A stretch of DNA of 64,000 nt from Isoperla grammatica (lineage: Eukaryota; Arthropoda; Insecta; Plecoptera; Perlodidae): positions 5,081,458-5,145,457 of the forward strand of contig OX246740.1 of the NCBI GenBank assembly GCA_945910005.1, written 5' to 3'. How positions within the stretch are numbered: position 1 is the stretch's first letter; each line of letters opens with the position of its first letter. Made by a program: the position numbers and the translations under genes. Positions 12,715-58,613 of the stretch are shown here, piece after piece. Under the pieces are notes generated by a model. It was not told where the DNA came from. It made no database searches and worked only from the letters and a program-made list of their open reading frames with translations.

Positions 12715-13131
12715 TCAACACGTGTTTTTTTTTTGTACTAGTCGTTTACTTCTCCCCCTCAAAATAGAGCTGTACCTAAAATCGCAGTTGTCTGTGGTGA
12801 ATGCATAGAGCGGACTCACATAGTGCTACTGACAAAGCAAAACGACATACCTTTTACTGTTGGCTGAGGTAATTGGTCCACCATATTCATTTCCTTTCAA
12901 TATATTTGCGTTGGCGCCGTGTTTTGTGCCCCAACTGAACCAAAGAAAATCAGAAATTAGTCACAATAAGCAACTCAAAGTGTCCCTTTATTTGTAAATC
13001 TTGTTTACGTTTAGGCATAGCTTTCCTTGTACTCACCGCTTTTCATTAAGCTTTCTAATGTTGATTTTGCGATGTTTTGTTTTTCTTCTCTGTAGGAGGG
13101 TCAACCTAGTTTTACTCGTTTTCCTACCCAT
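12715..13131 (-). CDS. Basic-exon family member, 3 exons, ~79 aa
   Basis: This is the most complete model of the undescribed minus-strand family. Exon 1 is 13131-13037 (95 nt, ATG, 31 codons plus 2 nt, donor GTGAGT). Exon 2 is 12934-12851 (84 nt, acceptor TTCTTTGGTTCAG, donor GTATGT). Exon 3 is 12775-12715 (acceptor GATTTTAG, stop TGA). Introns are 102 and 75 nt, and every junction is phase 2. The protein is very basic: it opens M-G-R-K-T-S-K-T-R, exon 1 ends R-K-L-N-E-K-R, and exon 3 encodes R-G-R-S-K-R. There is no signal peptide or membrane segment. A nuclear or nucleic-acid-binding role is only an inference from composition. Exon 1 aligns without gaps to the 15.1-kb locus. Exon 3 is the least certain part. 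Confidence 0.55.
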
Positions 13132-13258
13132 CACTTTAACCGCAAACGCGTTAACAAGTTTCAAGTAGGCTAGTGTTAGTATCTGGTGCTTTTCGGCCAG
13201 TGGCGTAACTCCCTATAGTGCAAGGTATGCGCTGCTTACGGGCGTAAAAGGTTTGATA

Positions 13259-13318
13259 TAATTATCGCTTGATGGTGGCCCCTAGGTCCCCGCGACCTAG
13301 GGGCCACCATCGAGCGAT
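13259..13318. repeat. Near-perfect hairpin palindrome
   Basis: Arms of about 27 nt starting ATTATCGCT and running into GGTGGCCCCTAGGTC face each other across a few GC bases, with one mismatch. It would form a strong cruciform or hairpin. It could be a compact fold-back MITE; no clear target duplication is seen. Confidence 0.75.
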
Positions 13319-13873
13319 AATAATATCCAACTTTTTAATTTAAAATATCTACTACCTTTTAGAATTTTGAGGACAGTTTACTGTGCGATAGTAGAATCGC
13401 TTTTGCTGTATGTTTTTTTTTGTGGGGACGTGCATCAAAATGCCATTTAAAAATCACTAATGGCATTGCAGAATCGAATCATTAAATCTATAACACCCAA
13501 TCTAAACCTTTTCATTCTAAAGCGTTATCAACTTTCTGGTGTGCTCCCAGTCTCGTCTTTACTTACTTTCTTTTAGATTGTTGCTTGCTTATTATTTCAA
13601 TGATAAATATAAAGTTATAAATGATGTCAGTAGGGTAAATCTCCGTCATAGAAATAGATATTTAGTACCCTCCTATATATGCAAGTATGGAATGAGAACT
13701 TTAAGATTTATAATTCTTAATGAATTAACAAGTTGCCATCAAATTTAAGTGAGTTTAGTTAAAATTAAATTCTAAGAGTTTTTTTTTTTTTAATTAACGT
13801 AGAGTAACTAATAGGGTAATATGTAACGTAGAGTAATATGCATTGCGTGTTTTTGCTAATTTATTTTGTGTTT

Positions 13874-14190
13874 TTATTTAAATTGTATATATATATGGTC
13901 AAGAATCGGTAATACAATGCTCATGTATAAACTACGGATAACAAAACTGGAGGAATGATGATCGCAGGTGCGTTTAATAGAGCCCAAGGTTTTGAAGGCA
14001 CGCTTCAATACATAATCAATGTGAGCGTTAAAATTAAGATCTTTAGCGATAACAACGCCAAGGTCGCACACACTGTCAACACGGCTAAGTAAAACACCAT
14101 CCGTTGTGTAGTTGAACATTATAACTTTCTGTTTATTAGTGAATGATATCACCTGACATTTAAGAAAAACGAAACTTTTATTATTCGCGT
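13874..14190 (-). pseudogene. Non-LTR retrotransposon reverse transcriptase, C-terminal fragment
   Basis: The frame contains the post-palm region typical of Jockey-like ORF2 proteins: K-C-Q-V-I-S-F-T, then R-V-D-S-V-C-D-L-G-V-V, H-I-D-Y-V-L-K-R-A, L-G-S-I-K-R and L-Y-M-S-I-V-L-P-I-L-D-H. The catalytic palm (YADD box) and endonuclease are absent, so it is a truncated relic. The 3' tail is not obvious. Confidence 0.75.
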
Positions 14191-14227
14191 TTCCTTCTTT
14201 TAGTATATAATACTTGAATCCTTGCAC

Positions 14228-15043
14228 TTAAATAGCAGATTAAGCCATATTTTGTACTTAAATATCAGACTACGCATTTTGTTGCAGCAATAGTTTCACG
14301 AAGAAGAATCAGAAATGGAACACATAATATTTTGATGCCCACCATCTTAAAAACAAGCGTTTTCGTTCCAAAATTACAAGTCAGCGCAGTAAGTATGACG
14401 TCATTTTCCGCTTATCTAATGCCTCTTCTAAACTAAGTGATTATCGCATGTAGTAATTACAATCTCCAGTTAACTCTCAGTGTAGAAGTGATCCACCAAC
14501 GATGATCTAATTACAGGGTAGGACCCCAAGTTAAGTGATGCACTGCCTTTCAAACATGTACTACTCGTTGCGTCCTCAAGACGATTTCCCACCAAATTCG
14601 TAGTTGAGGTTATGTTTAAACTTTCAGGTTCAATAACAGTAACGTTCGTACACTAGTGACCTTTACCTGTAGAGTTAACATTACTTAAACACCTGATAAG
14701 AAAGTTCTGCGAAGTACAATATGAAGCCATTGGGTTTGAAATATCCCAATGATGAAGCTGCTACGAGAATTTGTTTACTTTCGTTGTTACAAAAGTTACT
14801 ATTAGAGTAGAGGTCGCATAATCGATATTATCGGTGCAGTGTAGAAGTGCACGACGATCATCAGCCTCCAGGTAACTGCATATGATTATCACTGTCTGAG
14901 TGTAGAAGGAGCATAAGCGAACTCAGCAGCTAAATTCTGGCACGCGACTTATATTCTAGTGGAACATTCGCTACGCTCATCCAAAAATCATCAGTCAACG
15001 GTTTTAAAAGCCAACAAACAAATAAACATATGCATGTACTTAC
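14228..15043. other. Intergenic DNA with repeated TGTAGAAG modules
   Basis: Imperfect copies of a module containing TGTAGAAGTG plus CGATCATC-like sequence occur at about 14481, 14840 and 14901. On the minus strand, the acceptor at 14876-14877 (CATATGCAG) opens a 38-codon frame in the phase needed by the 15.1-kb first exon, so a second exon of that locus may start at 14875. This is not proven. Confidence 0.35.
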
Positions 15044-15138
15044 CGTTTCTCATTTAATTTTCGAATATTGTCCTTACGATATTTCACTTTTCTTTTCTGG
15101 GATAATTTCAGCCTTCGTCTGTTTTTTTCCCCATCCAT
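15044..15138 (-). CDS. Basic-exon family member, first exon (95 nt)
   Basis: ATG at 15138, 31 codons plus 2 nt, then donor GTAAGTAC. Length and phase are the same as the 13.1-kb exon, to which the peptide aligns without a gap: both contain Q-(R/K)-R-K, K-(H/Y)-R-K-x-N-I-R-K-L-N-E-K and end in Arg split by the intron. Thirteen of 31 residues are Lys or Arg. The function is unknown. A possible exon 2 begins at 14875 in the correct phase. Confidence 0.6.
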
Positions 15139-16867: not shown

Positions 16868-16961
16868 TTTCTCCGTAAGGACAAATTACTTTTTTCCCCT
16901 TTCTTACACTTTTTTGCTTTTGATAGTCGTTTCTGCGTTTTACTTTCCGTCGAGTATCCAT
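16868..16961 (-). CDS. Basic-exon family member, first exon with a 1-nt slip
   Basis: ATG at 16961 opens M-D-T-R-R-K-V-K-R-R-N-D-Y and runs to donor GTAAGT after 94 nt (phase 1), while relatives have 95 nt and phase 2. Adding one A in the GGGGAAAAAAG run would restore K-G-K-K-S-N-L and the usual phase. This is either a frameshifted copy or a homopolymer error in the assembly. Confidence 0.5.
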
Positions 16962-17219
16962 GACGAATTGTCACTCCACAAAAATGTCTTGTATGATTGT
17001 CTTCGAGCAGCCGGATGTCTTCTGGTATAATCAGTCAACACTACCCCAACCCCCACCCCTTACCCCTGATACCCCTTCCCCTTCAACCACAACAAGAGCG
17101 TCAATAAGTTCTCCGGTCCTTCTTATTCATAGATTAGCTCAGTGAATAGAATACCAGACATTGTGTCTGTAAGGTTGAAAGAATTAGAATAACAAACAGT
17201 GCAGGACTGGTGCAAGTTG

Positions 17220-17752: not shown

Positions 17753-18128
17753 CTAGAATAGACGGAGTAAATATGGAAGTGTCGTGTCGGCTGTACCACT
17801 GTCTTCGTCTTCAATATATTCAGTCCCACAACACCAGGCTAGTCTAGGATGTTGGTTCCCTTACAAGTAGCCGAACGATGGTAAATTCAAAATATATAAT
17901 TTGAAATTTCCAATGTGCTATACGTGTGTTACATCCTATTTGAATAACACATTTATTTGTTATAATGCGTTACAATTAATACACTTACCTTGCATTCTTT
18001 CGACTTTCTCTCCATTTTACAAGAGGGTTTTCACTACCCTTGGGGTATACACGCTTTTTTCTGCGTGCGTTCAATGCTAAACGAGCTTTCCGTCTTTGTG
18101 TTCTTATTCTGCCGTTTATAGGCGCCAT
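17753..18128 (-). CDS. Basic-exon family member, 1-2 exons
   Basis: Exon 1 is 18128-17989 (ATG, 46 codons plus 2 nt, donor GTAAGT, phase 2). The peptide has Q-R-R-K-A-R-L-A-L-N-A-R-R-K-K-R-V and V-K-W-R-E-S-R-K-N-A-R, a longer version of the family core ending in K-W. A possible second and last exon, 17843-17753, follows an acceptor ATCCTAG in the right phase and encodes G-T-E-Y-I-E-D-E-D-S-G-T-A before TAG. It is acidic, unlike exon 1. Its 5' flank CATGACATTTCTC is shared with the 25.8-kb locus. Exon 1 is well supported, exon 2 weakly. Confidence 0.55.
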
Positions 18129-18974: not shown

Positions 18975-18990
18975 TAAGGAAGTAAGTAAA

Positions 18991-19086: not shown

Positions 19087-19095
19087 GGGAGAAAC

Positions 19096-19202: not shown

Positions 19203-20888
19203 GGTCTTTATTGAAGGCGGGATTAAGGCCAGTTGGGCCTTCTCTTACATCCAACCTACTTATACACTAACAAAAATCCACGTCTCATTCATCCATCCCA
19301 TTCACTCTATTTATTTTCCATTGACATTATTAAGGGAAGCATGGTCACATTACAACTACCAACGAGTACATTCTGCCATAATTGGTATTTAAAATAAGTG
19401 TTAATTTTTATTAAAATAGTGATTGTGAGTTTTGAATCGAAATAACCCTAAATTGTCATGATAAACATCCCTTATCTCTGCAGGTAGAGCATTCCAGGTG
19501 CGTATAGCATGTATTATGAAGGAATTATCTAAAATATTAGTTCTGTGGATAGGAAAAGCTAGTATAGTGCCGGATCTTGATCTGGTGTTGAAAGAGTGAT
19601 TTGAATGAAGATAATGGAAGTTTGACGCGAGATAACTAGGTGAAGAAGTAGAGAGAATACGGTGGGTAAGACAAACAGAATGAAGGTTACGACGGTCTTT
19701 TAAGCGGATCCAGGATAACTGTTTGAAGCCAGGAGTAATGTGGTCATATTTTCTTATTCCTAAGATAAACCTAACGCACGAGTTTTGGGCACGTTGAAGA
19801 CGGATGGCTAGGTCTTCTGTTAGGTCGTTGTAAACGACGTCACAGTAGGTCGTTCAAAGTTATTTTATGGACATTTGAAATGTTTATTTTATTCAACAAT
19901 TTATGATATCCAATTATTATAGATTGGGATTTAAGTGGGTTTATTAGCAACCCATGTTTGGTTGCCCAGGTAGTCAGATTTTCCAAGTCATTATTAATCA
20001 AATCTATAGCGGCGTCGAGTTTCAGTGGGGAGGCATGCAAGTATATTTGCAGATCGTCAGCATAGAGGTGGTGATGACAATACTTTAATGCTTTTGAAAT
20101 ACTATTTATGTAGAGAGAAAACAATAGAGGTCCGAGGACACTTCCTTGAGGAACACCAGCTCTTAATGTCTGCCATTGAGATTGACAATCAAGTGATATT
20201 ATACTTTGCTTACGATCACGAAAGTATGACTCGAACCATTGTATCACCGGCGCAGAAAAGTTTATGGTTTTCAGTTTTGCAATTAGTATATCTATATCGA
20301 CCGAGTCAAAGGCCTTGCTAAAGTCGAGTAATGTTAGGATAGTCAATTGTCTATGGTCCATTTTAGATCTAATGTCGTCAGTAACTTTTATAAGAGCTGT
20401 ACATGTGCTGTGGTTGACCCGAAACCCTGATTGATGTTGGTCTAAAATGTCGTTTTGTGTCAGGTATTCAGACACTTGAGTATGAACGATGTATTCGAGA
20501 ACTTTTGATAGTGCTGGTAATATGCTAATTGGTCTGTAGTCTCCTGCCGTTTCAGGCTTTACTTTTTTCGCAAGAGGACGAACTAATGCGTGTGTCCACA
20601 TATGAGGATAGGAAGAACTAGTAAGGGAGAAGTTAAGTAAATAAGTAATATGTTCAATTAAAAATGGGGAATGTTTGATCATGTGTTTAATAAGTTCTAT
20701 AGGGATATTATCTACTCCTTGGGCATTGGACTGGATACGATTTATAGCACGTAGAGCAGTTTGAGGCGTCACGTGTGAGAAATAGAACTTCTCATAAGGT
20801 TGTATATATTTCTATTGTTTGATAATTCGTTTAAAAATTCTTTTTTAATTGTGGGGTCGATTTCTTGCACTGGCTGGATAAAATGCGA
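19203..20888 (-). pseudogene. Non-LTR retrotransposon, 5'-truncated and internally deleted
   Basis: Minus-strand ORF2 relic of a Jockey/CR1-like element. The palm region is 20772-19842: G-V-D-N-I-P-I-E, D-Y-R-P-I-S-I-L-P, D-F-S-K-A-F-D-S-V-D, G-V-P-Q-G-S-V-L-G-P-L-L-F and the catalytic Y-A-D-D-L-Q. Just upstream, in another frame (about 20885-20780), is the preceding linker, split off by a 2-nt insertion at the CACACGTGACG site. At 19841 the frame breaks. Reading resumes from about 19842 as C-D-V-V-Y-N-D-L and runs to TAA at 19401-19403, with the usual W-N-A-L-P-A-E-I-R-D near the end. About 90 residues that normally join the two parts are missing. The 3' UTR ends with AATAAAG and an (ATCT)n tail. 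The endonuclease domain is absent. It is not functional. Confidence 0.85.
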
Positions 20889-23496: not shown

Positions 23497-23831
23497 CTTT
23501 GCGAATCAGAGTGTTCAGACGGAACTAACTCAGTTTGTTCCAACTGATATTGTATGCCAGACGTGCACGGTGTCGATGGACTAGGGGCTGGTTCATGCAT
23601 CTCTCTGTAATTGAAATAATAAACGTATTATTGTTATGCCATACACACGTGCCTGTGGAACATTAGTGTACATCAATGAACGTAGTTCTCTTACCTTGGA
23701 GGTGAATATTGCGGTTCCATGGCTTCTTTTTCACGCTCTTCTTTTTTTCTTTTAAAGCGTTTCACTGCCGCTTTGGCGTGCTTACTCCTTTTCCTTGGCC
23801 GACCTGGATTGACCTTCTTATTCCTCCCCAT
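23497..23831 (-). CDS. Basic-exon family member with AT-hook-like motif, 2 exons
   Basis: Exon 1 is 23831-23695 (ATG, 45 codons plus 2 nt, donor GTAAGA). It encodes N-P-G-R-P-R-K-R-S-K, an AT-hook-like core, then a Lys/Arg/Glu-rich helix-prone stretch (R-F-K-R-K-K-E-E-R-E-K-E) and Q-Y-S-P-P. A 90-nt intron ends TTTCAATTACAG. Exon 2 is 23604-23497 (108 nt, entered and left in phase 2, donor GTATAT), rich in Pro, Ser, Thr and Glu: E-P-A-P-S-P-S-T-P-C-T-S-G and S-E-H-S-D-S-Q. Exon 3 was not found; a retrotransposon relic lies just beyond. A DNA-binding role is suggested only by the AT-hook-like motif. Confidence 0.65.
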
Positions 23832-25612: not shown

Positions 25613-25845
25613 TTAGAGTAATGCACATAATAAAATGGAGTAATGTCGCCCACTGACAATTATAAGTAACCGTGTGGGTATACATATACACGTAATAGGC
25701 TAACTACAACTAAATAGGCCTATAAGCTATTTATTTATTTATTTACTCACATCCATCTCCATATATTGTTTTTCTTTCCCTTTCTCGACCTTCTTCTCGC
25801 ATTTAGTGTCAAATTTCCACTGCTTCTAGGCGCGTTTACCCCCAT
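25613..25845 (-). CDS. Basic-exon family member, first exon (95 nt)
   Basis: Exon 1 is 25845-25751: ATG, 31 codons plus 2 nt, donor GTGAGT. It encodes L-T-L-N-A-R-R-R-S-R-K-G-K-K-N-N-I-W-R-W, the canonical family core. A phase-correct acceptor (ATTGTCAG) lies after 98 nt, the usual intron-1 size. The frame then stops after 12 codons (25652-25613), so the product would be very short or the second exon is broken. Confidence 0.6.
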
Positions 25846-27032: not shown

Positions 27033-27145
27033 CTTTGATTGGCTCTCCACGCTGCTAAGTTAGCAGAGCCTTTATTCTTTTTGCGCTTTGCAGAAAGAAA
27101 CAACGCGGTTTTTGTACCAAATCGACTGTCCCGCACTCTTCCCAT
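27033..27145 (-). CDS. Basic-exon family member, first exon (113 nt)
   Basis: ATG at 27145, 37 codons plus 2 nt, donor GTTTGT (phase 2, weaker than the consensus). The peptide opens M-G-R-V-R-D-S-R-F-G-T-K and has L-S-A-K-R-K-K-N-K-G-S-A-N-L-A-A-W-R-A-N-Q, matching the family pattern of a basic block, Asn, then a Trp-Arg near the splice junction. Downstream exons are uncertain. Confidence 0.5.
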
Positions 27146-28804: not shown

Positions 28805-28888
28805 ACAGCAGCGAAAGCGTATGTTGACCTCATTGGCTTTGTGGGGTTGGGGCTAAACATACCATCAAGGGCAAATAGGAACACTTAC

Positions 28889-29230
28889 TAAAACGTAAAA
28901 TGGAAGCACCCCTATTTGTCCTCCAGTTTCCAAAGTTCTTTTCAAAACGGAGGACGCTGTCGTACGTGGTATTCAATTTATTCAATATTTTATTTGTTAA
29001 TATTGCCAATCTCTCGGTGACCGTAATGGCAGGTCTCATGATTATGTTATTTATTTCGATAAGTGACCGCACAAGCTCTTCCAACTCATCAAAATGCCAA
29101 TTATCCATCCTTAAATAGTTTTTAAAATCCTCTGGCGCAAATGCTCTTAACTCGTTGATTAATGCAATATACGAATGCGATTATCGCTTTTTTAACCATT
29201 CTTTAACCCACATTTTTCGAGATCGCTTTT
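28889..29230 (-). pseudogene. PIF/Harbinger transposase N-terminal relic
   Basis: Minus-strand frame reads M-W-V-K-E-W-L-K-K-R, a stop, then Y-I-A-L-I-N-E-L-R, D-F-K-N-Y-L-R-M-D, F-D-E-L-E-E-L-V-R-S-L-I and M-R-P-A-I-T-V-T-E-R-L-A. This is the conserved N-terminal region of PIF/Harbinger (HARBI1-like) transposases. After E-R-L-A the similarity ends and the frame runs on to a consensus donor GTAAGT at 28888. The DDE catalytic domain is missing. An in-frame stop interrupts it near the start. Confidence 0.75.
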
Positions 29231-30278
29231 TTTCTTCTGTTTATTTATATGTAAAATAATAATACTAGCACAAGCAATTGCATGTTTCGATAGCACTGGA
29301 GCCATAGTGCGTGCGTGCTACCGAGCACGAGGAACTATCGCAACTGAGGCGGTTTTTAGTGTTTTAGGGGCGTTGTTCACAAGCATCTTGTCATTGACTA
29401 CGTTTATCAGGCGAGCTGAGCTCGGACTACTACCCCGGTAAAATAGCAATTTTACCCGGAATTAATTGGTACAGAATTTTTTTTTATCAGAAGTTGTTTG
29501 CTATATATACCTACATATGCCGAAGAAAGTTTACCGCCGTCCGACCCCCCTAATTAACGTAATTAATTAAAATGCTTTTATTAATTAATGCTTATATAAT
29601 CGTTATTTTCAAAGATTTGTCTGATATTGTATATTAAATACATTAAGTAAAGCCTTTTGTAATAAGAAAAACATTGAAAACCTGTGTATAAATATTTCGG
29701 CAAGCATTAATGAATTAATATCAATATAATAACATTTTTAATAAAATGGTTCCCGTGTATAATTCGTATAATGAAATATATGGCTAATAGTTGTAAATAT
29801 ATAAGTAGTAACATATAAAACTACTGTAGAAAGTTTACCGAAATAAAAGTAATATTCGTATGATAAATCAGCATAATTAATTATACATTAATTACCGATG
29901 TTTAAAAGGAATACATATTTGAATGTATGCATTATGGGTATCAAAAGAAAGCTGCCGATACGTGGGTTTCAATATCGGGTATCTCTAGGCGAAGTAAAAA
30001 AAAAAAAATCCTGGGGGGGGGGGGGGGAATGCTCTGCAGATGTTTCGTTAAACGTATCAATCGAAAGATATTAATACGTCGTTGTTTTTAGGAAAAGTAC
30101 TTCAAAAGGGCGATAAAAGAAAATGTACCCTAGTACTTGGCTAATATATTGTAGAGGGGGGGGGGGGGGGGGGGCGGGGGGTTAAGTAAAAGAGCGCCTT
30201 GTAAACTCAATTTCAATGTTTACCAAATTTAATTGATGTGACTTCATAGATATGAGGTTCGATTACTCCGATACAAAA

Positions 30279-30530: not shown

Positions 30531-31757
30531 ATCCGATACAAAACTCTAGGCCCGTCTTCCATGATTCACTTTGCAGTGATTCACCATGCAATGAGGGTAG
30601 AATTCTCATGATTAGCTGACTCTACGTGCGGCATCATCTTGTGCTTGAATTAAGTAGTGTTATGAACTTATGATAGATTATTGTCTTGACCCGATGTAGG
30701 AAGCTTAGTGAATCATGATTTGTTAATTACACACCAATAATATGGCCACTTGATTGGGTTGGTGAGAAAATTTTGTTTGCTGCTCAAGCAAAAACAACAA
30801 GCAAACAGTCATGTTTGGCTCAACTGGATTGTAGTGCGTTTATTACCATGCCACTCCGTTTAAAATGATTTTTTTTTATTTTGCTATTGTTGATAGCCCA
30901 TTATAGTCGCCATCAACTACTACAGTAGTATTTTAGTATTTGCTTTTGATGTACTAAGCATGCATATTGCATAGCAGCTCTTCATAAGATTTGTCTCTAG
31001 ACCAAAGTATAAACGATGCAGTCAGTCCCTCCATAAAATACAAAGCAATTGTTATTTATTTTTTCATATTCCATATTCTCGTATTCATATTCATATTCGT
31101 GATCATAATCGGGATCGGGATGGATCGTTACCGTACATTTTCTCATGCTAAATCATTACGACAAGATTTTATTGTGAACAGCGCCATAAGAACCATGTAG
31201 GCCCACTCTTCCATGATTTCTTAATTGCGATTGCAATACCGATACCGACAATTGCGGTTGGGGCTTTATATTCCAAACAGTATGCAAAAGAGAAGAATTT
31301 TGATCTTGCCTTGGAACACTCAAATAGTAAAATAATCTGAAGGTAGTGAAATTACTATTCTGTTGTTGAAGTGTGTCAGTGATACTTGTTCGTTTAGCTA
31401 AATTTGAGTTTATTTCACATCGGGTCTATTTGACTATATTTTGAAATGTTATTTATATCTGGTATTTTAAAACATACGAAACAAGTTAGTTATTGCTAGA
31501 ATTTGATATATATACATACAAAGTAAGTAAGCTCTGGTATTCAAATAAGTACCAGTACGGCGCTGCGAAAGCGACTTTTTTATTTACCCCCCCCCCCCCC
31601 CCCCCCCCCGCCAACCGCCCTCCTCCCCAATATATAAGCCAAGCACTAAGGTACATTTTTTTAATCGCCCTGTTAAAGTACTTTTCCTAAAAGCAAGGTA
31701 TTAGCTTTTATTTGATACGTTTGACGAAATACCTGCATACCTAAAAAAATAAAATAC

Positions 31758-31791
<34 letters not shown>

Positions 31792-33043: not shown

Positions 33044-33138
33044 ATCAATTTTAATATATTGTTTACCTTCCCTCTTTTTGATTTTCTCCTAGCACTTGGG
33101 TACAAACGTTTGCTTCTTCCTTCAGTTTGTCTAGCCAT
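33044..33138 (-). CDS. Basic-exon family member, first exon (95 nt)
   Basis: ATG at 33138, 31 codons plus 2 nt, donor GTAAGC, phase 2. Peptide M-A-R-Q-T-E-G-R-S-K-R-L-Y-P, then S-A-R-R-K-S-K-R-G-K-V-N-N-I-L-K-L. Its 5' flank (AGTCTGTGGTAGGAA) and its intron (GAGTCAAGTAAATAAT) match the 51.5-kb locus, so the two are duplicates. The sequence aligned with that locus's exon 2 (from 32966 down) carries stops at once, so this copy looks broken after exon 1. Confidence 0.55.
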
Positions 33139-36753: not shown

Positions 36754-36947
36754 TTAGTAGCAGGAATCATGTCGTTTGAAGTATCCTCATGGTGTACTTC
36801 AGTTTCAATGCGATCACTAACTTCACTGTCACTAATTATTGCACTGCTTTTCAGATTCGATTGTTTTAGCTTCTTTTTAGCATTCATGTTTTTAGCCAAC
36901 GTCTTGCGTGATCTTGCCCGCGAGGGCCATTTTCTTGCTTTAGGCAT
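36754..36947 (-). CDS. Basic-exon family member, long first exon (194 nt)
   Basis: ATG at 36947, 64 codons plus 2 nt, donor GTAAGT, phase 2. The N-terminal half is basic (M-P-K-A-R-K-W-P-S-R-A-R-S-R-K, then N-A-K-K-K-L-K). The C-terminal half is acidic/Ser-Thr (D-S-E-V-S-D-R-I-E-T-E-V and H-E-D-T-S-N-D), like an exon 1 fused to an exon 2. The next exon was not found. Confidence 0.5.
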
Positions 36948-41374: not shown

Positions 41375-41454
41375 GACTCGTAGGTTTTCGCGGACCGATG
41401 AATGTTTCTGTTGCACGTTTTCGGGTTGACTGCCGCGCTCTTTCTTGAGACAAC
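41375..41454 (-). repeat. Penelope-like tail fragment bordering the satellite
   Basis: On the minus strand AAGAGCGCGGCAGTCAACCC and GGTCCGCGAAAACCTACGAG match 17.30-17.38 kb in order. The satellite begins directly at its end. Confidence 0.6.
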
Positions 41455-44400
41455 GTTAGCCCCGCATTGTCCTGACGATAATGAAGAGAAAGGTATTGTC
41501 GGATAGCGTACAAGCACAACACCTTAGCTCCACATTGTGCTGACGATGCATGAAGAGAAAGGTATTGTCGGATAGCGTACAAGCACAACACGTTAGCCCC
41601 ACATTGTGAGACGATGCTGAAGAGAAAGGTATTGTCGGATAGCGTACAAGCACAACACGTTAGCCCCGCATTGTGCTGACGATGCTGAAGAGAAAGGTAT
41701 TGTCGGATAGCGTACAAGCACAACACGTTAGCCCCGCATTGTGCTGACGATGCTGAAGAGAAAGGTATTGTCGGATAGCGTACAAGCACAACACGTTAGC
41801 CCGCATTGTGCTGACGACGCTGAAGAGAAAGGTATTGTCAGATAGCGTACAAGCACAACACGTTAGCTCCGCATTGTGCTGACGATGCTGAAGAGAAAGG
41901 TATTGTCGGATAGCGTACAAGCACAACACGTTAGCCCGCATTGTGCTGACGACGCTGAAGAGAAAGGTATTGTCAGATAGCGTACAAGCACAACACGTTA
42001 GCTCCGCATTGTGCTGACGATGCTGAAGAGAAAGGTATTGTCGGATAGCGTACAAGCACAACACGTTAGCCACACATTGTGAGACGATGCTGAAGAGAAG
42101 GGTATTGTCGGATAGCGTACAAGCACAACACGTTAGCCTCGCATTGTGCTGACGATGCTGAAGAGAAAGGTATTGTCGGATAGCGTACAAGCACAACACG
42201 TTAGCCCCGCATTGTGCTGACGATGCTGAAGAGAAAGGTATTGTCGGATAGCGTACAAGCACAACACGTTAGCCCCGCATTGTGCTGACGATGCTGACGA
42301 GAAAGGTATTGTCCGATAGCGTACAAGCACAACACGTTAGCCCCGCATTGTGCTGACGATGCTGAAGAGAAAGGTATTGTCGGATAGCGTACAAGCACAA
42401 CACGTTAGCCCTGCATTGTGCTGACGATGCTGAAGAGAAAGGTATTGTCGGATAGTGTACAAGCACAACACGTTAGCCCCGCATTGTGCTGACGATGCTG
42501 AAGAGAAAGGTATTGTCGGATAGCGTACAAGCACAACACGTTAGCCCTGCATTGTGCTGACGATGCTGAAGAGAAAGGTATTGTCGGATAGTGTACAAGC
42601 ACAACACGTTAGCCCCGCATTGTGCTGACGATGCTGAAGAGAAAGGTATTGTCGGATAGCGTACAAGCACAACACGTTAGCCCCGCATTGTGCTGACGAT
42701 GCTGAAGAGAAAGGTATTGTCGGATAGCGTACAAGCACAACACGTTAGCCCTGCATTGTGCTGACGATGCTGAAGAGAAAGGTATTGTCCGATAGCGTAC
42801 AAGCACAACACGTTAGCCCTGCATTGTGCTGACGATGCTGAAGAGAAAGGTATTGTCGGATAGCGTACAAGCACAACACGTTAGCCTCGCATTGTGCTGA
42901 CGATGCTGAAGAGAAAGGTATTGTCGGATAGCGTACAAGCACAACACGTTAGCCCTGCATTGTGCTGACGATGCTGAAGAGAAAGGTATTGTCCGATAGC
43001 GTACAAGCACAACACGTTAGCCCTGCATTGTGCTGACGATGCTGAAGAGAAAGGTATTGTCGGATAGCGTACCAGCACAACACGTTAGCCCTGCATTGTG
43101 AGACGATGCTGAAGAGAAAGGTATTGTCGGATAGCGTACAAGCACAACACGTTAGCCCTGCATTGTGAGACGATGCTGAAGAGAAAGGTATTGTCGGATA
43201 GCGTACAAGCACAACACGTAAGGCCCGCATTGTCCTGACGATGCTGAAGAGAAAGGTATTGTCGGATAGCGTACAAGCACAACACGTTAGCCTCGCATTG
43301 TGCTGACGATGCTGAAGAGAAAGGTATTGTCGGATAGCGTACAAGCACAACACGTTAGCCCTGCATTGTGCTGACGATGCTGAAGAGAAAGGTATTGTCC
43401 GATAGCGTACAAGCACAACACGTTAGCCCTGCATTGTGCTGACGATGCTGAAGAGAAAGGTATTGTCGGATAGCGTACCAGCACAACACGTTAGCCCTGC
43501 ATTGTGAGACGATGCTGAAGAGAAAGGTATTGTCGGATAGCGTACAAGCACAACACGTAAGCCCTGCATTGTGCTGACGATGCTGAAGAGAAAGGTATTG
43601 TCGGATAGCGTACAAGCACAATACGTTAGCCCCGCATTGTGCTGACGATGCTGAAGAGAAAGGTATTGTCGGATAGCGTACAAGCACAATACGTTAGCCC
43701 CGCATTGTGCTGACGATGCTGAAGAGAAAGGTATTGTCGGATAGTGTACAAGCACAACACGTTAGCCCTGCATTGTGCTGACGATGCTGAAGAGAAAGGT
43801 ATTGTCGGATAGCGTACAAGCACAACACGTTAGCCCCGCATTGTGCTGACGATGCTGAAGAGAAAGGTATTGTCGGATAGCGTACAAGCACAACACGTTA
43901 GCCCGCATTGTGCTGACGATGCTGAAGAGAAAGGTATTGTCGGATAGCGTACAAGCACAACACGTTAGCCCGGTATTGTGAGACGATGCTGAAGAGAAAG
44001 GTATTGTCGGATAGCGTACAAGCACAACACGTTAGCCCCGCATTGTGCTGACGATGCTGAAGAGAAAGGTATTGTCGGATAGCGTACCAGCACAACACGT
44101 TAGCCCCGCATTGTGCTGACGATGCTGAAGAGAAAGGTATTGTCGGATAGCGTACAAGCACAACACGTTAGCCCAGCATTGTGAGACGATGCTGAAGAGA
44201 AAGGTATTGTCGGATAGCGTACAAGCACAACACGTTAGCCCGCATTGTGCTGACGATGCTGAAAAGAAAGGTATTGTCGGATAGCGTACCAGCACAACAC
44301 GTTAGCCCCGCATTGTGCTGACGATGCTGAAGAGAAAGGTATTGTCGGATAGCGTACAAGCAAAACACGTTAGCCCGGCATTGTGAGACGATGCTGAAGA

Positions 44401-44644
44401 GAAAGGTATTGTCGGATAGCGTACAAGCACAACACGTTAGCCCGGCGTTGTGAGACGATGCTGAAGAGAAAGGTATTGTCGGATAGCGTACCAGCACAAC
44501 ACGTTAGCCCCGCATTGTGCTGACGATGCTGAAGAGAAAGGTATTGTCGGATAGCGTACCAGCACAACACGTTACCCCCGCATTGTGCTGACGATGCTGA
44601 AGAGAAGGTATTATCGGATAGCGTACAAGCACAACACGTTAAGC

Positions 44645-45294
44645 CGTGGTTTTTAAGGACCACGCACGCGTCATTGCGTCAGCGTAATGCGTCGCGCGGA
44701 AGTCAAAGCTAAGTTTTTAAATGGAAGTGGTTTTTAATGCGTGCGTGCGTGAGTGCCTCGCAACGTCATTTCGAGGGTGCCGTTGCGTTGTGCGTGTGCG
44801 GGTTCCGGACCTAGACTTCTGCGTGATCACGCAGCACTCCCCTCACAACAGGTTGGTGTTTTGCCCCGAACAGGTTGTTGTTTTCTATCCTGCGTTCGTC
44901 ATGAGTTCTCAAGAGGATATTGCTGGCCATCGATTGCTGCTTGGAGTTGTAATGTCCTCCTTTATTTCTCTCAGGATAAAGTGGTAAATATCCCTTGACA
45001 CTCGGAAAAATTCCCGGAATTTCGTCTCATTATCCATCAAATGCCGTCCAATCAAATTGTAGTGACACCCTTCCTCTGCTCGCTTCTTAAAAATTTCGCT
45101 CGTATCCTCACTCGTACAGTAAGCTAATAGCAAATCGTCATCCTCTTCTTCCTCAAGCGCAATTGCCACAACGAGATCCTCCATGTTTCGCAGTACTCGA
45201 GTGACTGAGCACGCAACTTTAAAAACCACTACAAACTAGCGCGGCACGCACACTTATTGCTGCGGGACTCATGACGCTCACGCATTGACGCGTG
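44645..45294. mobile_element. Harbinger-derived insertion in the satellite
   Basis: A 650-bp non-satellite segment. GCACGCGTCATTGCGTCAGC at 44664 is mirrored, with two mismatches, at the right edge (45275-45295), and GTGGTTTTTAA occurs near both sides (44648, 44727 and inverted at 45228). Exact ends and target duplication are unclear. Confidence 0.65.
44907..45184 (-). pseudogene. PIF/Harbinger transposase, N-terminal fragment
   Basis: ATG at 45184; the frame reads M-E-D-L-V-V-A-I-A-L-E-E-E-E-D-D-D, E-I-F-K-K-R-A-E-E-G, H-Y-N-L-I, then K-F-R-E-F-F-R-V-S-R-D-I-Y-H-F-I-L and I-T-T-P-S-S-N-R-W-P-A-I-S-S before TGA. This order is that of HARBI1-like transposases (about 400 aa); only the first 92 residues remain and the DDE domain is missing. 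Confidence 0.8.
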
Positions 45295-48200
45295 CGGCAT
45301 TGTGAGACGATGCTGAAGAGAAAGGTATTGTCGGATAGCGTACAAGCACAACACGTTAGCCCAGCATTGTGAGACGATGCTGAAGAGAAAGTATTGTCGG
45401 ATAGCGTACAAGCACAACACGTAAGGCCCGCATTGTCCTGACGATGCTGAAGAGAAAGGTATTGTCGGATAGCGTACAAGCACAACACGTTAGCCTCGCA
45501 TTGTGAGACGATGCTGAAGAGAAAGGTATTGTCGGATAGCGTACAAGCACAACACGTTTGCCCCGCATTGTCCTGACGATGCTGAAGAGAAAGGTATTAT
45601 CGGATAGCGTACAAGCACAACACGTTAGCCCGGCATTGTGAGACGATGCTGAAGAGAAAGGTATTGTCCGATAGCGTACAAGCACAACACGTAAGGCCCG
45701 CATTGTGCTGACGATGCTGAAGAGAAGGGTATTGTCGGATAGCGTACCAGCACAACACGTTAGCCCCGCATTGTGCTGACGATGCTGAAGAGAAAGGTAT
45801 TGTCGGATAGCGTACAAGCACAACACGTTAGCCCGGCATTGTGAGACGATGCTGAAGAGAAAGGTATTGTCGGATAGCGTACAAGCACAACACGTAAGGC
45901 CCGCATTGTGCTGACGATGCTGAAGAGAAAGGTATTGTCGGATAGCGTACAAGCACAACACGTTAGCCCCGCATTGTGCTGACGATGCTGAAGAGAAAGG
46001 TATTGTCGGATAGCGTACAAGCACAACACGCTAGCCCCGCATTGTGCTGACGATGCTGAAGAGAAAGGTATTGTCGGATAGCGTACAAGCACAACACGTT
46101 AGCCCCGCATTGTCCTGACGATGCTGAAGAGAAAGGTATTGTCGGATAGCGTACCAGCACAACACGTTAGCCCCGCATTGTGCTGACGATGCTGAAGAGA
46201 AAGGTATTGTCGGATAGCGTACAAGCACAACACGTAAGCCCCGCATTGTGCTGACGATGCTGAAGAGAAAGGTATTGTCGGATAGCGTACAAGCACAACA
46301 CGTTAGCCCCGCATTGTGCTGACGATGCTGAAGAGAAAGGTATTGTCGGATAGCGTACAAGCACAACACGTAAGCCCTGCATTGTGAGACGATGCTGAAG
46401 AGAAAGGTATTGTCGGATAGCGTACCAGCACAACACGTTAGCCCCGCATTGTGCTGACGATGCTGAAGAGAAAGGTATTGTCGGATAGCGTACAAGCACA
46501 ACACGTAAGCCCCGCATTGTGCTGACGATGCTGAAGAGAAAGGTATTGTCGGATAGCGTACAAGCACAACACCTTAGCTCCACATTGTGCTGACGATGCT
46601 GAAGAGAAAGGTATTGTCGGATAGCGTACAAGCACAACACGTTAGCCCCGCATTGTGCTGACGATGCTGAAGAGAAAGGTATTGTCGGATAGCGTACAAG
46701 CACAACACGTTAGCCCCGCATTGTGCTGACGATGCTGAAGAGAAAGGTATTGTCGGATAGCGTACAAGCACAACACGTTAGCCCGGCATTGTGAGACGAT
46801 GCTGAAGAGAAAGGTATTGTCGGATAGCGTACAAGCACAACACGTTAGCCCGGCATTGTGAGACGATGCTGAAGAGAAAGGTATTGTCGGATAGCGTACA
46901 AGCACAACACGTTAGCCCGGCATTGTGAGACGATGCTGAAGAGAAAGGTATTGTCGGATAGCGTACAAGCACAACACGTTAGCCCGGCATTGTGAGACGA
47001 TGCTGAAGAGAAAGGTATTGTCGGATAGCGTACAAGCACAACACGTTAGCCCGGCATTGTGAGACGATGCTGAAGAGAAAGGTATTGTCCGATAGCGTAC
47101 AAGCACAACACGTAAGGCCCGCATTGTGCTGACGATGCTGAAGAGAAGGGTATTGTCGGATAGCGTACCAGCACAACACGTTAGCCCCGCATTGTGCTGA
47201 CGATGCTGAAGAGAAAGGTATTGTCGGATAGCGTACAAGCACAACACGTAAGCCCCGCATTGTGCTGACGATGCTGAAGAGAAAGGTATTGTCGGATAGC
47301 GTACAAGCACAACACCTTAGCTCCACATTGTGCTGACGATGCTGAAGAGAAAGGTATTGTCGGATAGCGTACAAGCACAACACGTTAGCCCCGCATTGTG
47401 CTGACGATGCTGAAGAGAAAGGTATTGTCGGATAGCGTACAAGCACAACACGTTAGCCCGGCATTGTGAGACGATGCTGAAGAGAAAGGTATTGTCGGAT
47501 AGCGTACAAGCACAACACGTTAGCCCCGCATTGTGCTGACGATGCTGAAGAGAAAGGTATTGTCGGATAGCGTACAAGCACAACACGTTAGCCCGGCATT
47601 GTGAGACGATGCTGAAGAGAAAGGTATTGTCGGATAGCGTACAAGCACAACACGTTAGCCCGGCATTGTGAGACGATGCTGAAGAGAAAGGTATTGTCGG
47701 ATAGCGTACAAGCACAACACGTTAGCCCGGCATTGTGAGACGATGCTGAAGAGAAAGGTATTGTCGGATAGCGTACAAGCACAACACGTTAGCCCGGCAT
47801 TGTGAGACGATGCTGAAGAGAAAGGTATTGTCGGATAGCGTACAAGCACAACACGTTAGCCCGGCATTGTGAGACGATGCTGAAGAGAAAGGTATTGTCC
47901 GATAGCGTACAAGCACAACACGTAAGGCCCGCATTGTGCTGACGATGCTGAAGAGAAGGGTATTGTCGGATAGCGTACCAGCACAACACGTTAGCCCCGC
48001 ATTGTGCTGACGATGCTGAAGAGAAAGGTATTGTCGGATAGCGTACAAGCACAACACGTTAGCCCGGCATTGTGCTGACGATGTTGAAGAGAAAGGTATT
48101 GTCGGATAGCGTACAAGCACAACACCTTAGCCCCGCATTGTGCTGACGATGCTGAAGAGAAAGGTATTGTCGGATAGCGTACCAGCACAACACGTTAGCC

Positions 48201-49149
48201 CGGCATTGTGAGACGATGCTGAAGAGAAAGGTATTGTCGGATAGCGTACAAGCACAACACGTTAGCCCCGCATTGTGCTGACGATGCTGAAGAGAAAGGT
48301 ATTGTCGGATAGCGTACAAGCACAACACGTTAGCCCCGCATTGTGCTGACGATGCTGAAGAGAAAGGTATTGTCGGATAGCGTACAAGCACAACACGTTA
48401 GCCCGGTATTGTGAGACGATGCTGAAGAGAAGGGTATTGTCGGATAGCGTACCAGCACAACACGTTAGCCCCGCATTGTGCTGACGATGCTGAAGAGAAA
48501 GGTATTGTCGGATAGCGTACAAGCACAACACGTTAGCCCGGCATTGTGCTGACGATGCTGAAGAGAAAGGTATTGTCGGATAGCGTACAAGCACAACACG
48601 TTAGCTCCGCATTGTGCTGACGATGCTGAAGAGAAAGGTATTGTCGGATAGCGTACAAGCACAACACGTTAGCCCCGCATTGTGCTGACGATGCTGAAGA
48701 GAAAGGTATTGTCGGATAGCGTACAAGCACAACACGTTAGCTCCGCATTGTGCTGACGATGCTGAAGAGAAAGGTATTGTCGGATAGCGTACAAGCACAA
48801 CACGTTAGCCCCGCATTGTGCTGACGATGCTGAAGAGAAAGGTATTGTCGGATAGCGTACAAGCACAACACCTTAGCCCCGCATTGTGCTGACGATGCTG
48901 AAGAGAAAGGTATTGTCGGATAGCGTACAAGCACAACACGTTAGCTCCGCATTGTGCTGACGATGCTGAAGAGAAAGGTATTGTCGGATAGCGTACAAGC
49001 ACAACACGTTAGCCCCGCATTGTGCTGACGATGCTGAAGAGAAAGGTATTGTCCGATAGCGTACAAGCACAACACGTTAGCCCCGCATTGTGCTGACGAT
49101 GCTGAAGAGAAAGGTATTGTCGGATAGCGTACAAGCACAGCACGTTAGC

Positions 49150-49283
49150 CACACATCAACACAACTGAACCCCTCACCAAAATCCTCAGCGTTAACGTCA
49201 GTATCATTTTTCGGAATTCTTTTTGCACAAGAAAATAAGTCACCATCAAACGTTGAATGAGTGTAGTACAATACTCCAATCAA
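49150..49283 (-). CDS. Short coding-like frame at the satellite edge
   Basis: The frame from ATG at 49283 reads G-V-L-Y-Y-T-H-S-T-F-D-G-D-L-F, then K-N-D-T-D-V-N-A-E-D-F-G-E-G-F-S-C-V-D before entering satellite sequence. It looks more protein-like than its surroundings but I cannot name it. It may be an exon truncated by the array. Confidence 0.25.
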
Positions 49284-51061: not shown

Positions 51062-51117
<56 letters not shown>

Positions 51118-51265: not shown

Positions 51266-51545
51266 CTCGAAATGTGGAAATGTGGAACCCCGGGCCCCGG
51301 TACCGCGAGCAAGCCACTGTCTGCGCTACGGTCTGGCTGTTTTGCACGGTTTCGAATGCTGCGCAACATGAGTCAAGTAAATAATGTTTACAAATTTAAA
51401 GTAAAACCAACAGTAAAGAATTTCAAATCAGATGAACAATGTTTACTTACTACCATTTGTAGATATTGCTTCTCTTTCCTCTTCGTGACTTTCTGCGCTC
51501 ATTTACGCGCAACTTTTGCGATCCTTCTCCCTTGCGTCTTGCCAT
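51266..51545 (-). CDS. Basic-exon family member, 2 exons
   Basis: Exon 1 is 51545-51451 (95 nt, donor GTAAGT, phase 2): M-A-R-R-K-G-E-G, L-R-V-N-E-R-R-K-S-R-R-G-K-R-S-N-I-Y-K-W, the best example of the family core. The 92-nt intron ends CATGTTGCGCAG. Exon 2 is 51358-51266 (93 nt, entered and left in phase 2, donor GTAAAC): R-N-R-A-K-Q-P-D-R-S-A-D-S-G and A-V-P-G-P-G-V-P-H-F-H-I-S. Exon 3 was not found; the (AAT)n tract follows. A sister copy is at 33.1 kb. Confidence 0.65.
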
Positions 51546-52500: not shown

Positions 52501-52504
52501 AAAT

Positions 52505-53100: not shown

Positions 53101-53109
53101 AGCTGTCTG

Positions 53110-55574: not shown

Positions 55575-55625
55575 GTATTTATTATACAGACTTCATACGC
55601 ATGCCGAATAAGTGACTATACGAAC

Positions 55626-55957
55626 CTTGAATTGAGCCTGTCAGCCCAGAGAGAACACCCTGGTTCTGAGGGGGGCCCTTGAGGACCAGGCGTGGTCGAC
55701 TGCGGCTCTGGTCCGGTCACTTCCGGTTCTTTCTTCAGTAATTGCGATCTGCATTATTATGATCGGAATAAACTATGTCAAGCATTCACATTATTGGTAT
55801 AAAATCAATAACAATTCAAATAGCCAAAACAAAATATAGCCACAACATACCTTCTCCATTTAGCAAAATTATTTCTATTTCCTCTTCTTGATTTCCTCCT
55901 CGTTGACAACCGTATTTTTCCAACGCCTTTCGTGGAGTAGCCGTACGGCCTGTCCAT
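55626..55957 (-). CDS. Basic-exon family member, 2 exons (cassette A)
   Basis: Exon 1 is 55957-55851 (107 nt, donor GTATGT, phase 2): M-D-R-P-Y-G-Y-S-T-K, then L-S-T-R-R-K-S-R-R-G-N-R-N-N-F-A-K-W-R. The intron is 102 nt (ends AATAATGCAG). Exon 2 is 55748-55626 (123 nt, phase 2 in and out, donor GTTCGT): S-Q-L-L-K-K-E-P-E-V, a Pro/Gly/Ser-rich stretch (T-T-P-G-P-Q-G-P-P-S-E-P), then C-S-L-W-A-D-R-L-N-S. The whole cassette is duplicated at 58.3-58.6 kb. Exon 3 is not found. Confidence 0.7.
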
Positions 55958-56171
55958 GTTGCAGCGTGGCTCGATATCTTGTGCAGAGGGAGGCCGTCGT
56001 CAAAGCACAATCCAAACTGCTCTTACCCCTGGCAATGACAATACGTGTTCCGGTCCATTCTGAGAAAGGGGGTCTGTGGGGGTCGCGGCCCACTTGTCAA
56101 TATAGTTATAAACACATAAACTCACACAAATGTGTTCCTCTGTAGCTGTAGCCCGGCCGACAAGTGGGAGA

Positions 56172-56558
56172 CCCAGCGAGGCTATTCTCGAAATAAGAGC
56201 ACGTCATATTACATCACCTCAAAAATCACGTGATATTTGTACCATTTCATAACTTACGGTACGGGTCTTATATAACCTAAAACTTCGCGATAAATTCGAA
56301 CGGGATTGAACGGGAAATGATTGTGATTGTAATACCTTCTTGCTATCTTGCTAAGTGTGGTGTGTGTATATAAATTAAATTTATCCAACAATTTGGAACA
56401 CATTTTTACTAAATTAATTATATACGCTTTGAGGCCGAACGGCGTAGTTTTGAGAAAGTGATAAAAGTTATGATTCATAATAACGCATCGCGTGGTAAAA
56501 ATTCGTCATAACTCGATCACTTGCTCACTGCTCACATTTCGAGAATAGCCCCGCTGGG
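56172..56558. mobile_element. 387-bp MITE inserted in a SINE
   Basis: Ends CCCAGCG(A/G)GGCTATTCTCGAAAT are inverted over 23 bp with one mismatch. They split a tRNA-headed SINE: GACAAGTGGGAGA lies before and TTCGATTCCCAGCACGGTCGG after. The target duplication is unclear because the ends overlap SINE sequence. Confidence 0.65.
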
Positions 56559-56644
56559 TTCGATTCCCAGCACGGTCGGTTTTTTGCTTTGTGTCTTGTC
56601 ACATAAAATATATATGTATATGTGTGAACTAAGACAGCAAGTTA

Positions 56645-56861
56645 AAAATTCCAACCCCGCTTGAAATCGAACCCAGGTCTCTTACTTGCCGACGTGGGAG
56701 TCCTGGATTCGATTCCCAGCGGGGTCGGATTTTTAACTTTCTGTCGTAGTTCACATAATATAAAACCCACAGTGGCTTACTATAAAAACCAGATTTTATA
56801 TATATTATATACGATTTTTTATATTTTGTTGGTTGCAGAATTTATTAAAGGATTGGTTTGA
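56645..56861 (+). mobile_element. tRNA-headed SINE with a second copy at 63.8 kb
   Basis: GGATTCGATTCCCAGC (B-box-like), then GGGGTCGGATTTTTAACTTT and a body ending ATTTTGTTGGTTGCA, matches 63816-63960 over about 145 bp. A minus-strand B box (GGGTTCGATTT) lies just upstream, so two heads face each other. Confidence 0.7.
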
Positions 56862-56894
56862 TCTGTACAAAAGTTTTCTTATAATATATATAAT

Positions 56895-57130
56895 ATCGAT
56901 ATTTTTTTAAGAGACACTTGTCTTGATGGTGGTGGTGAAAATCCAGAAAGTAAAAAACCAACCCCAACTGGGAATCGAAGTCAGGTATCCGGAGCACTTG
57001 CCGGGTGGGCGCCATGATGTCATAATGCACACAATCCAGCCGTTGAACCGGTCTCGGTGGTGTAAAGGTTATGGAGCCCACCCGGCAAGTGGTAGACCTG
57101 GGTTCGGTTCCCAGCTGGATCTCTTCTGGA
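56895..57130. mobile_element. Two tRNA-headed SINEs facing each other
   Basis: Minus-strand head at 56955-57015 and plus-strand head at 57050-57115 (GGAGCCCACCCGGCAAGTGG, then GGGTTCGGTTCC) share the CCACCCGGCAAGTG core. The minus copy is the sister of 40890-41030. Confidence 0.7.
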
Positions 57131-58216
57131 TCTCTCCAATATATATATATATGCATTGGATATTCTCGCACCAATACTGAGTTTGTAAATTGACATGAGT
57201 AAGGGGTAAAACTTGACTCCACTTTGTATAATATAGGCTACCTACATATAATTATAAACAATATTTTGGGGATTTCTTATCATGACTGTATCATTTATAA
57301 ATAAAATGTATAAAGAATACTTTTGTGTATTTGTATTTACACGAAGTAATAGATTTGTGAACATCGTGAACATCGTCCAAGTTTTCCGAATCAAAATCTT
57401 CTGACTCAAGTGTCCTGTTAGTGGTCGACCGACCGTGCTCCTTTCAAATGCATTTCAAATGTATTTACAGCAGATATTTACAAGCCAGCCAGCCAGGCGG
57501 CAATCCGACCGGCCGGCGGCTGGCTTTTGTTGTTGAAAGAAGGGTCGTCTATGGCTATGCATCTCTCTCTCAAACGAGCTTCCACTCGCGCAAAACCTCC
57601 CCTCCAAGAATCTTGCAGTCGGAGTGTTGTGGTTCGGAGACATTTCTATGGAGGGCAGCAAATTGTAGCTTGCCTAATCAAAAGATGCCGTTCCTAAATT
57701 CTTAGGACATTCTAATTATAAGCGGAGACCTTATATATTATGATGTGTTGGTTTTAGATTTTCTCTATATAGTTCAATTGAAAAGTCAACTTTAAAAAAT
57801 ATTTGCGGATACGACGGCGAGAATTTAAAAAATCCGAACCCACGCACAACTTGTACAGGAGTTGTCTGTACGAGGAAAAATGTTCATGAATATTGATTCA
57901 TTGGTTTACGAGTTTTACCTAATTTACTGTACCACTGCAAAATTAAGACTCATTCTTAGGGGCATTGACATTGTCATACTGGGCCTCGTTCAGAGATCTA
58001 TGAAGTGTGAATGTTAGAAATGACGACAACACGCCTATTTAGTACATATTATCAATATCAAGTATCAGTATAAATAAATATACGTTGAATGATTATTTAC
58101 AGTTTTCGCCGATTATTGAATGCAATTTGTAAACAAGCATTAAAACATTGTTTGCGTTTTAAACAACAACCATCAGACAACGATCAGTAAATTCTATTAT
58201 GAAGATAAAATGTTGT
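57131..58216. other. Intergenic DNA, no firm gene
   Basis: Holds CCAGCCAGCCAGG at 57485 and open frames on both strands at 57421-57705 with no motif. A minus-strand acidic frame at about 57415-57365 (E-S-E-D-F-D-S-E-N-L-D-D) follows an AG and might be an exon-2-like piece; weak. Confidence 0.3.
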
Positions 58217-58280
58217 CCTCATTTGTTATACACACTCCATACGCATGCGGCATGCCGAATAAGTGACTAGCTATACGAAC

Positions 58281-58613
58281 CTTGAATTGAGCCTGTCAGC
58301 CCAGTGAGAACACCCTGGTTCTGAGGGGGGCCCTTGAGGACCAGGCGTCGTCGACTGCGGCTCTGGTCCGGTCACTTCTTTCTTCAGTAATTGCGATCTG
58401 CAATATTATGATCGAAATTAATTATGTCAAGCATTCATAATTCACATTATTGGTATAAAATCAATAACAATTCATATAGCCAAAACAAAATATAGCCACA
58501 ACATACCTTCTCCATTTAGCAGAATTACTTCTTTTACCCCTTCTTGATTTTCTCCTCGTAGATAATTGTACGTTTCTAACGCCTTTCGTGGAGTAGCCGT
58601 GCGGCCTGTCCAT
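58281..58613 (-). CDS. Basic-exon family member, 2 exons (cassette B)
   Basis: Exon 1 is 58613-58507 (107 nt, donor GTATGT): M-D-R-P-H-G-Y-S-T-K, then L-S-T-R-R-K-S-R-R-G-K-R-S-N-S-A-K-W-R. The intron is 109 nt. Exon 2 is 58397-58281 (117 nt, phase 2 in and out). It is cassette A with a 6-nt in-frame deletion (E-P lost from K-K-E-P-E-V) and one amino-acid change (C-S-H-W instead of C-S-L-W). No stop or frameshift. A hAT element has landed 60 bp upstream (58674), in the probable 5' UTR or promoter. Confidence 0.7.

Follow-up and report, generated by a model that had tools for sequence, protein, structure and literature searches.

A single-strand array of about fifty short first coding exons in Isoperla grammatica, candidate alternative 5′ modules of a ZAD-type gene

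What are a dozen short exons for basic peptides doing next to one another on a single strand of an insect genome? The question arises from a stretch of 64,000 nucleotides of the plecopteran Isoperla grammatica (GenBank assembly GCA_945910005.1, contig OX246740.1, here C8; C8:5081458-5145457), called the window in the following. The original prediction for this window described at least twelve minus-strand loci that start at ATG, encode a Lys/Arg-rich peptide and reach a splice donor, either as a tandem family of small nuclear-type proteins or as a set of alternative 5′ exons that serve one common gene on the left. Within the 874 Mb, 603-contig genome we compared C8:4931458-5245457 (314 kb), together with 6.5 kb further left (320.5 kb in all). 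Positions are given in window numbering (genomic position on C8 minus 5081457), negative numbers lying to the left of base 1.

All 13 positions named in that prediction carry a minus-strand ATG followed by a Lys/Arg-rich peptide, and the predicted dozen belongs to an array larger than the window. About 50 short first coding exons, all in minus orientation, span approximately 207,000 bases and reach about 148 kb to the left of the window. Sequence profiles with a threshold of E<1e-3 matched 37 basic open reading frames (ORFs) and 12 ORFs with a THAP zinc finger domain in the 314 kb. All 49 lie on the minus strand, as predicted; exons on both strands had been named as the finding that would speak against the proposal. 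The 105 kb read to the right of unit 58613 yielded no family match; a strict scan gave two weak rows there (66761 and 105266) and a looser scan a few more, none of them with a family match. A scan made without using the predicted positions (ATG to GT[AG]AG or GTATGT, Lys plus Arg at least 28%, both strands) yielded 11 rows at ten ATGs on the minus strand of the window and none on the plus strand, with 27145, 36947 and 11357 falling outside its limits. Extended to 264 kb, it gave 30 minus-strand versus two plus-strand rows, and 51 versus 11 with looser limits.

The basic peptides were modelled as three families, with 19 (A), 13 (B) and five (C) matches. Family A is characterized by the motif LxLSxRRKSRRGKxxNxxKWR, family B by RPRKRxKKAK, which we take to resemble an AT hook, and family C by MPKxRKWPS.... 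The core motif originally ascribed to many of the loci persists as the family A profile in most window units, whereas 23831 (B) and 36947 (C) fall into separate families. Because 34 of the 37 basic exons had served to build their own profiles (as had nine of the 12 THAP ORFs), basic exons were removed one at a time from their own model; 22 of 34 were then recovered at E<1e-3, seven more at E<1, and five failed. The best plus-strand match reached 0.0079 with the full family profiles and 0.0028 across all leave-one-out runs. Three profile matches, at -34193, 11397 and -68024, had never been part of model building. A profile from seven core peptides recovered the same seven at E 2.3e-11 or better and was weak on 27145 (0.27), 18128 (1.4) and 16961 (about 9). 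When window units were left out of the larger family model, nine of 11 were found at E<1e-3, and 13131 and 15138 at 0.014 and 0.011. Protein database searches with two unit peptides returned no homologue, and neither an Rfam search nor a tRNA scan gave anything useful.

The start codons of the basic units look genuine, judged by their sequence context. We examined 33 basic units picked for a clear ATG, with doubtful starts excluded, and used as controls other ATGs with at least 31 open codons. A purine stands at position -3 in 33 of 33 units versus 48-52% of controls, G at +4 in 23 (70%) versus 22%, and TCAGT occurs within 100 nt upstream in 30% versus 9-12%. No TATA enrichment was found upstream of these units. 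An in-frame stop upstream of all 33 was dropped as evidence, as chance gives nearly that over 400 nt. The exons are under purifying selection: the nonsynonymous rate was below the synonymous rate (dN<dS) in 12 of 12 chosen exon-1 pairs, not all of which are independent.

The splice donors are ordered by phase and nearly uniform within each of two zones. In the right zone, 39 of 42 basic ORFs (E<0.1) have a donor with a score of at least 0.9, and the best donor is in phase 2 in 35 of these 39; among strong donors (score at least 4), 23 of 24 are in phase 2. Other ORFs of the same region, for which the last 36 codons were examined, a stretch not quite identical to that used for the units, gave phase 2 in 225 of 838 (plus strand) and 229 of 905 cases (minus strand), or 25-27%. 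The right-zone THAP ORFs follow the same rule (best donor in phase 2 in seven of eight). Left of -131 kb, in the left zone, the best donor is in phase 1 in six of seven THAP ORFs, one of these donors being weak (1.4) and another lying inside the THAP domain, where the second-best is also in phase 1. The seventh is a half domain that runs on into an exon leaving in phase 1. Phase-2 donors had been predicted for all window loci but one, which holds for most of them, but 11357 lacks a usable donor and at 33138 a phase-0 donor scores slightly higher. Two of the proposed frames need correction, since the family A matches of 16961 and 11357 lie outside the frame of the stated ATG; in its matching frame, 16961 does have a phase-2 donor.

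Nine of ten ORFs submitted to Pfam matched THAP (PF05485) above the cut-off, the tenth being YqaJ. The two kinds of exon are tied together by the THAP exon at -31615, which has a family A-like motif (E 0.013) at its end, just ahead of the donor. Several of 13 THAP starts have AG immediately before the ATG and look as if a 5′ untranslated exon preceded them.

Two origins were rejected: chance basic peptides, given the strand bias of the scan and the donor-phase and start-context controls, and transposable element debris in random orientation, given the 49 of 49 matches on the minus strand.

Within the window, the array consists of the following units and parts; five first exons are exactly 95 nt long, as originally noted.

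58507..58613, minus: family A basic first exon of unit 58613, phase-2 donor AAG/GTATGT, matched by the family profile and when left out of it
58281..58397, minus: inferred second exon of unit 58613, rich in Pro, Ser and Thr, entered and left in phase 2
55851..55957, minus: family A basic first exon of unit 55957, phase-2 donor, 88% duplicate of 58613
55626..55748, minus: inferred second exon of unit 55957, rich in Pro, Ser and Thr, entered and left in phase 2
51451..51545, minus: family A basic first exon of unit 51545, 95 nt, phase-2 donor
51266..51358, minus: possible second exon of unit 51545, entered and left in phase 2
36754..36947, minus: family C basic first exon (MPKARKW...) of unit 36947, 194 nt, acidic tail, phase-2 donor
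33044..33138, minus: family A basic first exon of unit 33138, 95 nt, phase-2 donor scoring 2.8 and phase-0 donor scoring 3.1
27033..27145, minus: family A basic first exon of unit 27145, weak phase-2 donor AAG/GTTTGT, peptide 51% identical over 39 amino acids to the unit at -34077
25751..25845, minus: family A basic first exon of unit 25845, 95 nt, phase-2 donor
23695..23831, minus: family B basic first exon of unit 23831, with GRPRKR, by eye similar to an AT hook, phase-2 donor
23497..23604, minus: possible second exon of unit 23831, rich in Pro, Ser and Glu, entered and left in phase 2
17989..18128, minus: family A basic first exon of unit 18128, strong phase-2 donor AAG/GTAAGT
16868..17034, minus: degenerate or frame-shifted family A unit (E 0.0065), ATG 16961 off the family frame, phase-2 donor in the matching frame
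15044..15138, minus: family A basic first exon of unit 15138, 95 nt, phase-2 donor
13037..13131, minus: family A basic first exon of unit 13131, 95 nt, phase-2 donor
12851..12934, minus: possible second exon of unit 13131, entered and left in phase 2
11260..11397, minus: degenerate family A relative without usable donor (E 2.5e-5, outside model building), frame different from that of ATG 11357

Other sequences are interspersed between these units. A 68-base minisatellite forms two arrays (47 and 57 copies) inside the exon array at 41453-49150, and viral contigs contained no exact copy of the 33 bases of the repeat unit that served as query. Two inverted arms, each about 0.8 kb long and 84% identical (29451-30194 and 31575-32361), probably belong to a fold-back element. 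Two RVT_1 reverse transcriptase ORFs occur at 19843-20811 (minus) and 38592-39647 (plus), and a hAT-like transposase remnant, resting on weak matches below the Pfam cut-offs, at 61726-62999 (minus). An ORF at 28833-29180 (minus) resembles, by eye, the N-terminus of a Harbinger transposase. A 46-base core at 13198-13243 recurs in more than 60 places, including arrays with a period of about 103 bases at C6:35.76 and 35.81 Mb in opposite orientations.

Which sequence could these first exons be spliced to? We compared the 314 kb with itself by tblastx, using a minus-strand query with tandem repeats masked, stretches that also matched the plus strand removed and matches of at least 20 amino acids retained; the result was judged by eye, its E-values being distorted by sum statistics. 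No downstream exon common to the units was seen in this comparison. What remained were the first exons themselves, THAP domains, fragments of reverse transcriptase, tandem repeats and some short matches that did not convince, as well as a duplicated stretch around units -116105 and -117166 and an 89% repeat at -11618 and -114844. As a candidate constant exon, a YqaJ/Mutator piece at -108.5 kb was rejected, as it is partial, lies in mid-array and belongs to the multicopy Mutator family.

Beyond the left end of the array, 3.9 kb past the last THAP exon, a ZAD gene begins on the array's strand with two exons in phase 0 (-152329..-152547 and -153884..-154027). The second alone matches zf-AD (PF07776) above the cut-off (E 4.9e-8), the first alone gives no match, and joined they reach E 3e-11 (43.9 bits), the joined peptide being two residues short at the junction. 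The zf-AD domain is typical of arthropods. Between the two zones lies a candidate linker exon (-123689..-123828), rich in Pro, Ser and Gly, with good splice sites, entered in phase 2 and left in phase 1. A strict search for Pro/Ser-rich internal exons over 320.5 kb returned on the minus strand this exon and one at 99317, outside the array.

Weighing these observations, we put the chance slightly above even that this is one locus, in which about 50 alternative N-terminal modules feed a common ZAD-type gene. The window would then hold the upstream portion of a 5′ bank, whose coding exons are used as alternatives. Every unit would have its own start codon and probably its own promoter and would encode a basic, putatively DNA-binding or nuclear-targeting peptide, replaced in some units further downstream by a THAP zinc finger. 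A transcript would start at one unit and be spliced, directly or via a small second exon, past the downstream units to constant exons. The right-zone exons, leaving in phase 2, would join the linker -123689..-123828 (phase 2 to 1), while the left-zone THAP exons already leave in phase 1; both routes would then join -149998..-150113 (phase 1 to 0) and continue into the two phase-0 ZAD exons. We infer that this chain of phases 2, 1 and 0, assembled after the fact, keeps one reading frame open from the units into the ZAD gene. It would yield a transcription factor of the ZAD type whose N-terminal head can be exchanged among about 50 versions. The more specific claim, that a single ZAD locus picks among about 50 DNA-binding heads by promoter choice under a two-tier, frame-coded exon plan, falls short of an even chance. 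We prefer the 5′-exon bank because no common downstream exon was seen in the 314 kb compared, because donor phases are near-uniform within zones, and because a ZAD gene on the same strand follows after 3.9 kb. Of the two original interpretations, a bank feeding a gene to the left thus fits better and a family of small proteins less well.

Several observations weigh against the bank. Only nine of the 13 THAP starts show a purine at -3. In the right zone, the best donor is in phase 0 at 33138, -37661 and the THAP ORF at -4600 and in phase 1 at -61005 and -116093, and 11397, -67932 and -117142 have none. Linkers are needed to join the units, which leave in phase 2 or 1, to the ZAD exon, which is entered in phase 0. 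The limits of the strict linker search were chosen after -123689 had been seen, and on the plus strand the same search returned two exons, one within the array span. The exon -149998..-150113 is weak (site scores 0.6 and 2.6) and was picked post hoc among 22 candidates listed in 3.9 kb. No C2H2 fingers were seen by eye in the 2.5 kb past the ZAD exons. Furthermore, the 55957 type has dispersed copies at C5:81951470 (L031), C5:89103533 (degenerate) and C1:66965507 (L040). The copy L031 has the two-exon plan and donor of the 55957 type and shares with 58613 about 0.3 kb past the second donor, more than a bare first-exon cassette. In L040, exon 1 is broken, the intron and the beginning of the second exon are the same, and the sequence then continues into a Mutator-like domain (E 7.7e-6, below the Pfam cut-off by one bit), hence at least one exon type also heads transposase-like genes. 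Transposase N-termini may be the source of some heads, or certain units may be fragments.

The comparison of L031 with 55957 revealed further shared pieces up to 0.3 kb upstream. Among 55957, 58613 and L031 (55851-56010 and 58507-58666 in the window), exon 1 differs by 13-27% and the intron by only 5-10%. Positive selection as the cause of this excess was rejected, the excess being mostly synonymous in the comparison with L031; candidate causes of the difference are a constrained intron or conversion of exon 1. About 150 bases comprising the upstream region and start of unit 55957 (55951-56100) recur 14 times at 85-89% identity, ten of them on C15, and in one of these copies (L039) the following coding sequence is unrelated.

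The strongest alternative, which we consider unlikely, is a tandem cluster of separate small genes, each with its own fast-evolving second and last exon. Whole-gene tandem duplication would preserve strand and phase just as well, and the unit spacing of 1 to 14 kb leaves room for complete genes. Five units have local second exons that look convincing, Pro-rich in some. A search with strict site scores gave almost nothing, and with looser limits 11 of 32 units had a candidate versus 20-24% by chance, which is not clearly above it. These searches covered exons that reach a donor, not terminal ones closed by a stop codon. Separate genes are harder to reconcile with the lack of any common downstream or last exon family visible by eye in the 314 kb comparison, where the first exons are recognisably related. 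In addition, the duplicate pair 55957/58613 shares only about 0.45 kb, comprising some 60 nt before the ATG and the two exons to just past the second donor.

More improbable still is an accumulation, at one locus, of dead 5′ ends from transposase-like genes of the Mutator-like and THAP-bearing kinds. Both families are large in this genome (847 Mutator and 1284 THAP first-look candidates), the 55957 type is dispersed, L040 joins such an exon to a Mutator-like domain, and a partial Mutator plus YqaJ lies inside the array (-108536..-109964). Against this stand the single strand of all 49 matches, the start context, dN<dS in each of the 12 pairs and the uniform donor phase. Three Mutator/YqaJ pieces used as queries had no additional copies in the 314 kb, and none of the 125 genome-wide Mutator matches listed, from 114 of the 847 candidates scored, falls in C8:4.93-5.24 Mb. 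Within the 314 kb, a Mutator-like transposase domain was seen only as the partial copy at -108.5 kb, and the profile matches at E<1e-3 showed no copies in both orientations, as would be typical of Mutator-like elements. We rank this explanation third because the majority of units appear undamaged and in order.

Some of the 125 Mutator matches listed form same-strand clusters of three or four, at C1:98.46-98.89, C1:90.70-90.89, C14:16.58-16.81 and C16:39.09-39.33 Mb, which is odd for transposons. The stretch at C1:98.79 Mb appeared by eye as a mixture of Mutator-like, hAT-like and second-exon pieces.

Least probable is a common gene other than the ZAD gene, for instance two adjacent banks (phase 2, and phase-1 THAP) with separate unseen constant parts: the zones do differ in donor phase and the chain to the ZAD exon depends on inferred linkers, but the linker -123689 converts phase 2 into exactly the phase of the next zone, and the same-strand ZAD gene lies 3.9 kb past the last THAP exon.

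If the exons do form a bank for the ZAD gene, how does its plan compare with known loci? Clustered protocadherins of vertebrates use alternative promoters, and each transcript joins one variable first exon to common 3′ exons. Their variable exons of about 2.4 kb encode whole ectodomains, in contrast to the very divergent exons of about 0.1 kb described here. In Drosophila, lola and mod(mdg4) combine a constant N-terminal BTB end with variable C-terminal zinc fingers. The present locus would resemble these two as a transcription-factor locus with one constant part and many exons differing in the DNA-binding domain, but its variable end would be N-terminal. Of the systems compared, the closest plan is that of chelicerate sDscam, in which each tandem 5′ variable cassette comprises a few exons, has a promoter in front of it and is joined by splicing to a constant exon; the paper names clustered protocadherins alongside (PMC4835542). 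Tandem homologous exons on one strand, as in 5′ variable banks of the protocadherin or sDscam kind, are found here too, as are separate start codons for the basic units. The sDscam cassettes encode Ig domains, unlike the basic peptides and THAP fingers in two donor-phase zones at this locus. In the open-licence texts searched, no tandem bank of alternative THAP exons and no THAP-ZAD fusion turned up.

The known giant 5′ banks, protocadherins and sDscam, diversify cell-surface molecules; here, if the proposed bank is real, it would be the DNA-binding end of a nuclear factor. One gene could then address dozens of target sets, which raises the question of how one promoter among fifty is chosen. 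The heads might have been borrowed from, or be aimed at, the many THAP and Mutator-like transposons of this genome. As some of them resemble transposase N-termini, the locus would allow testing whether a host has recruited transposon DNA-binding modules into a switchable regulator.

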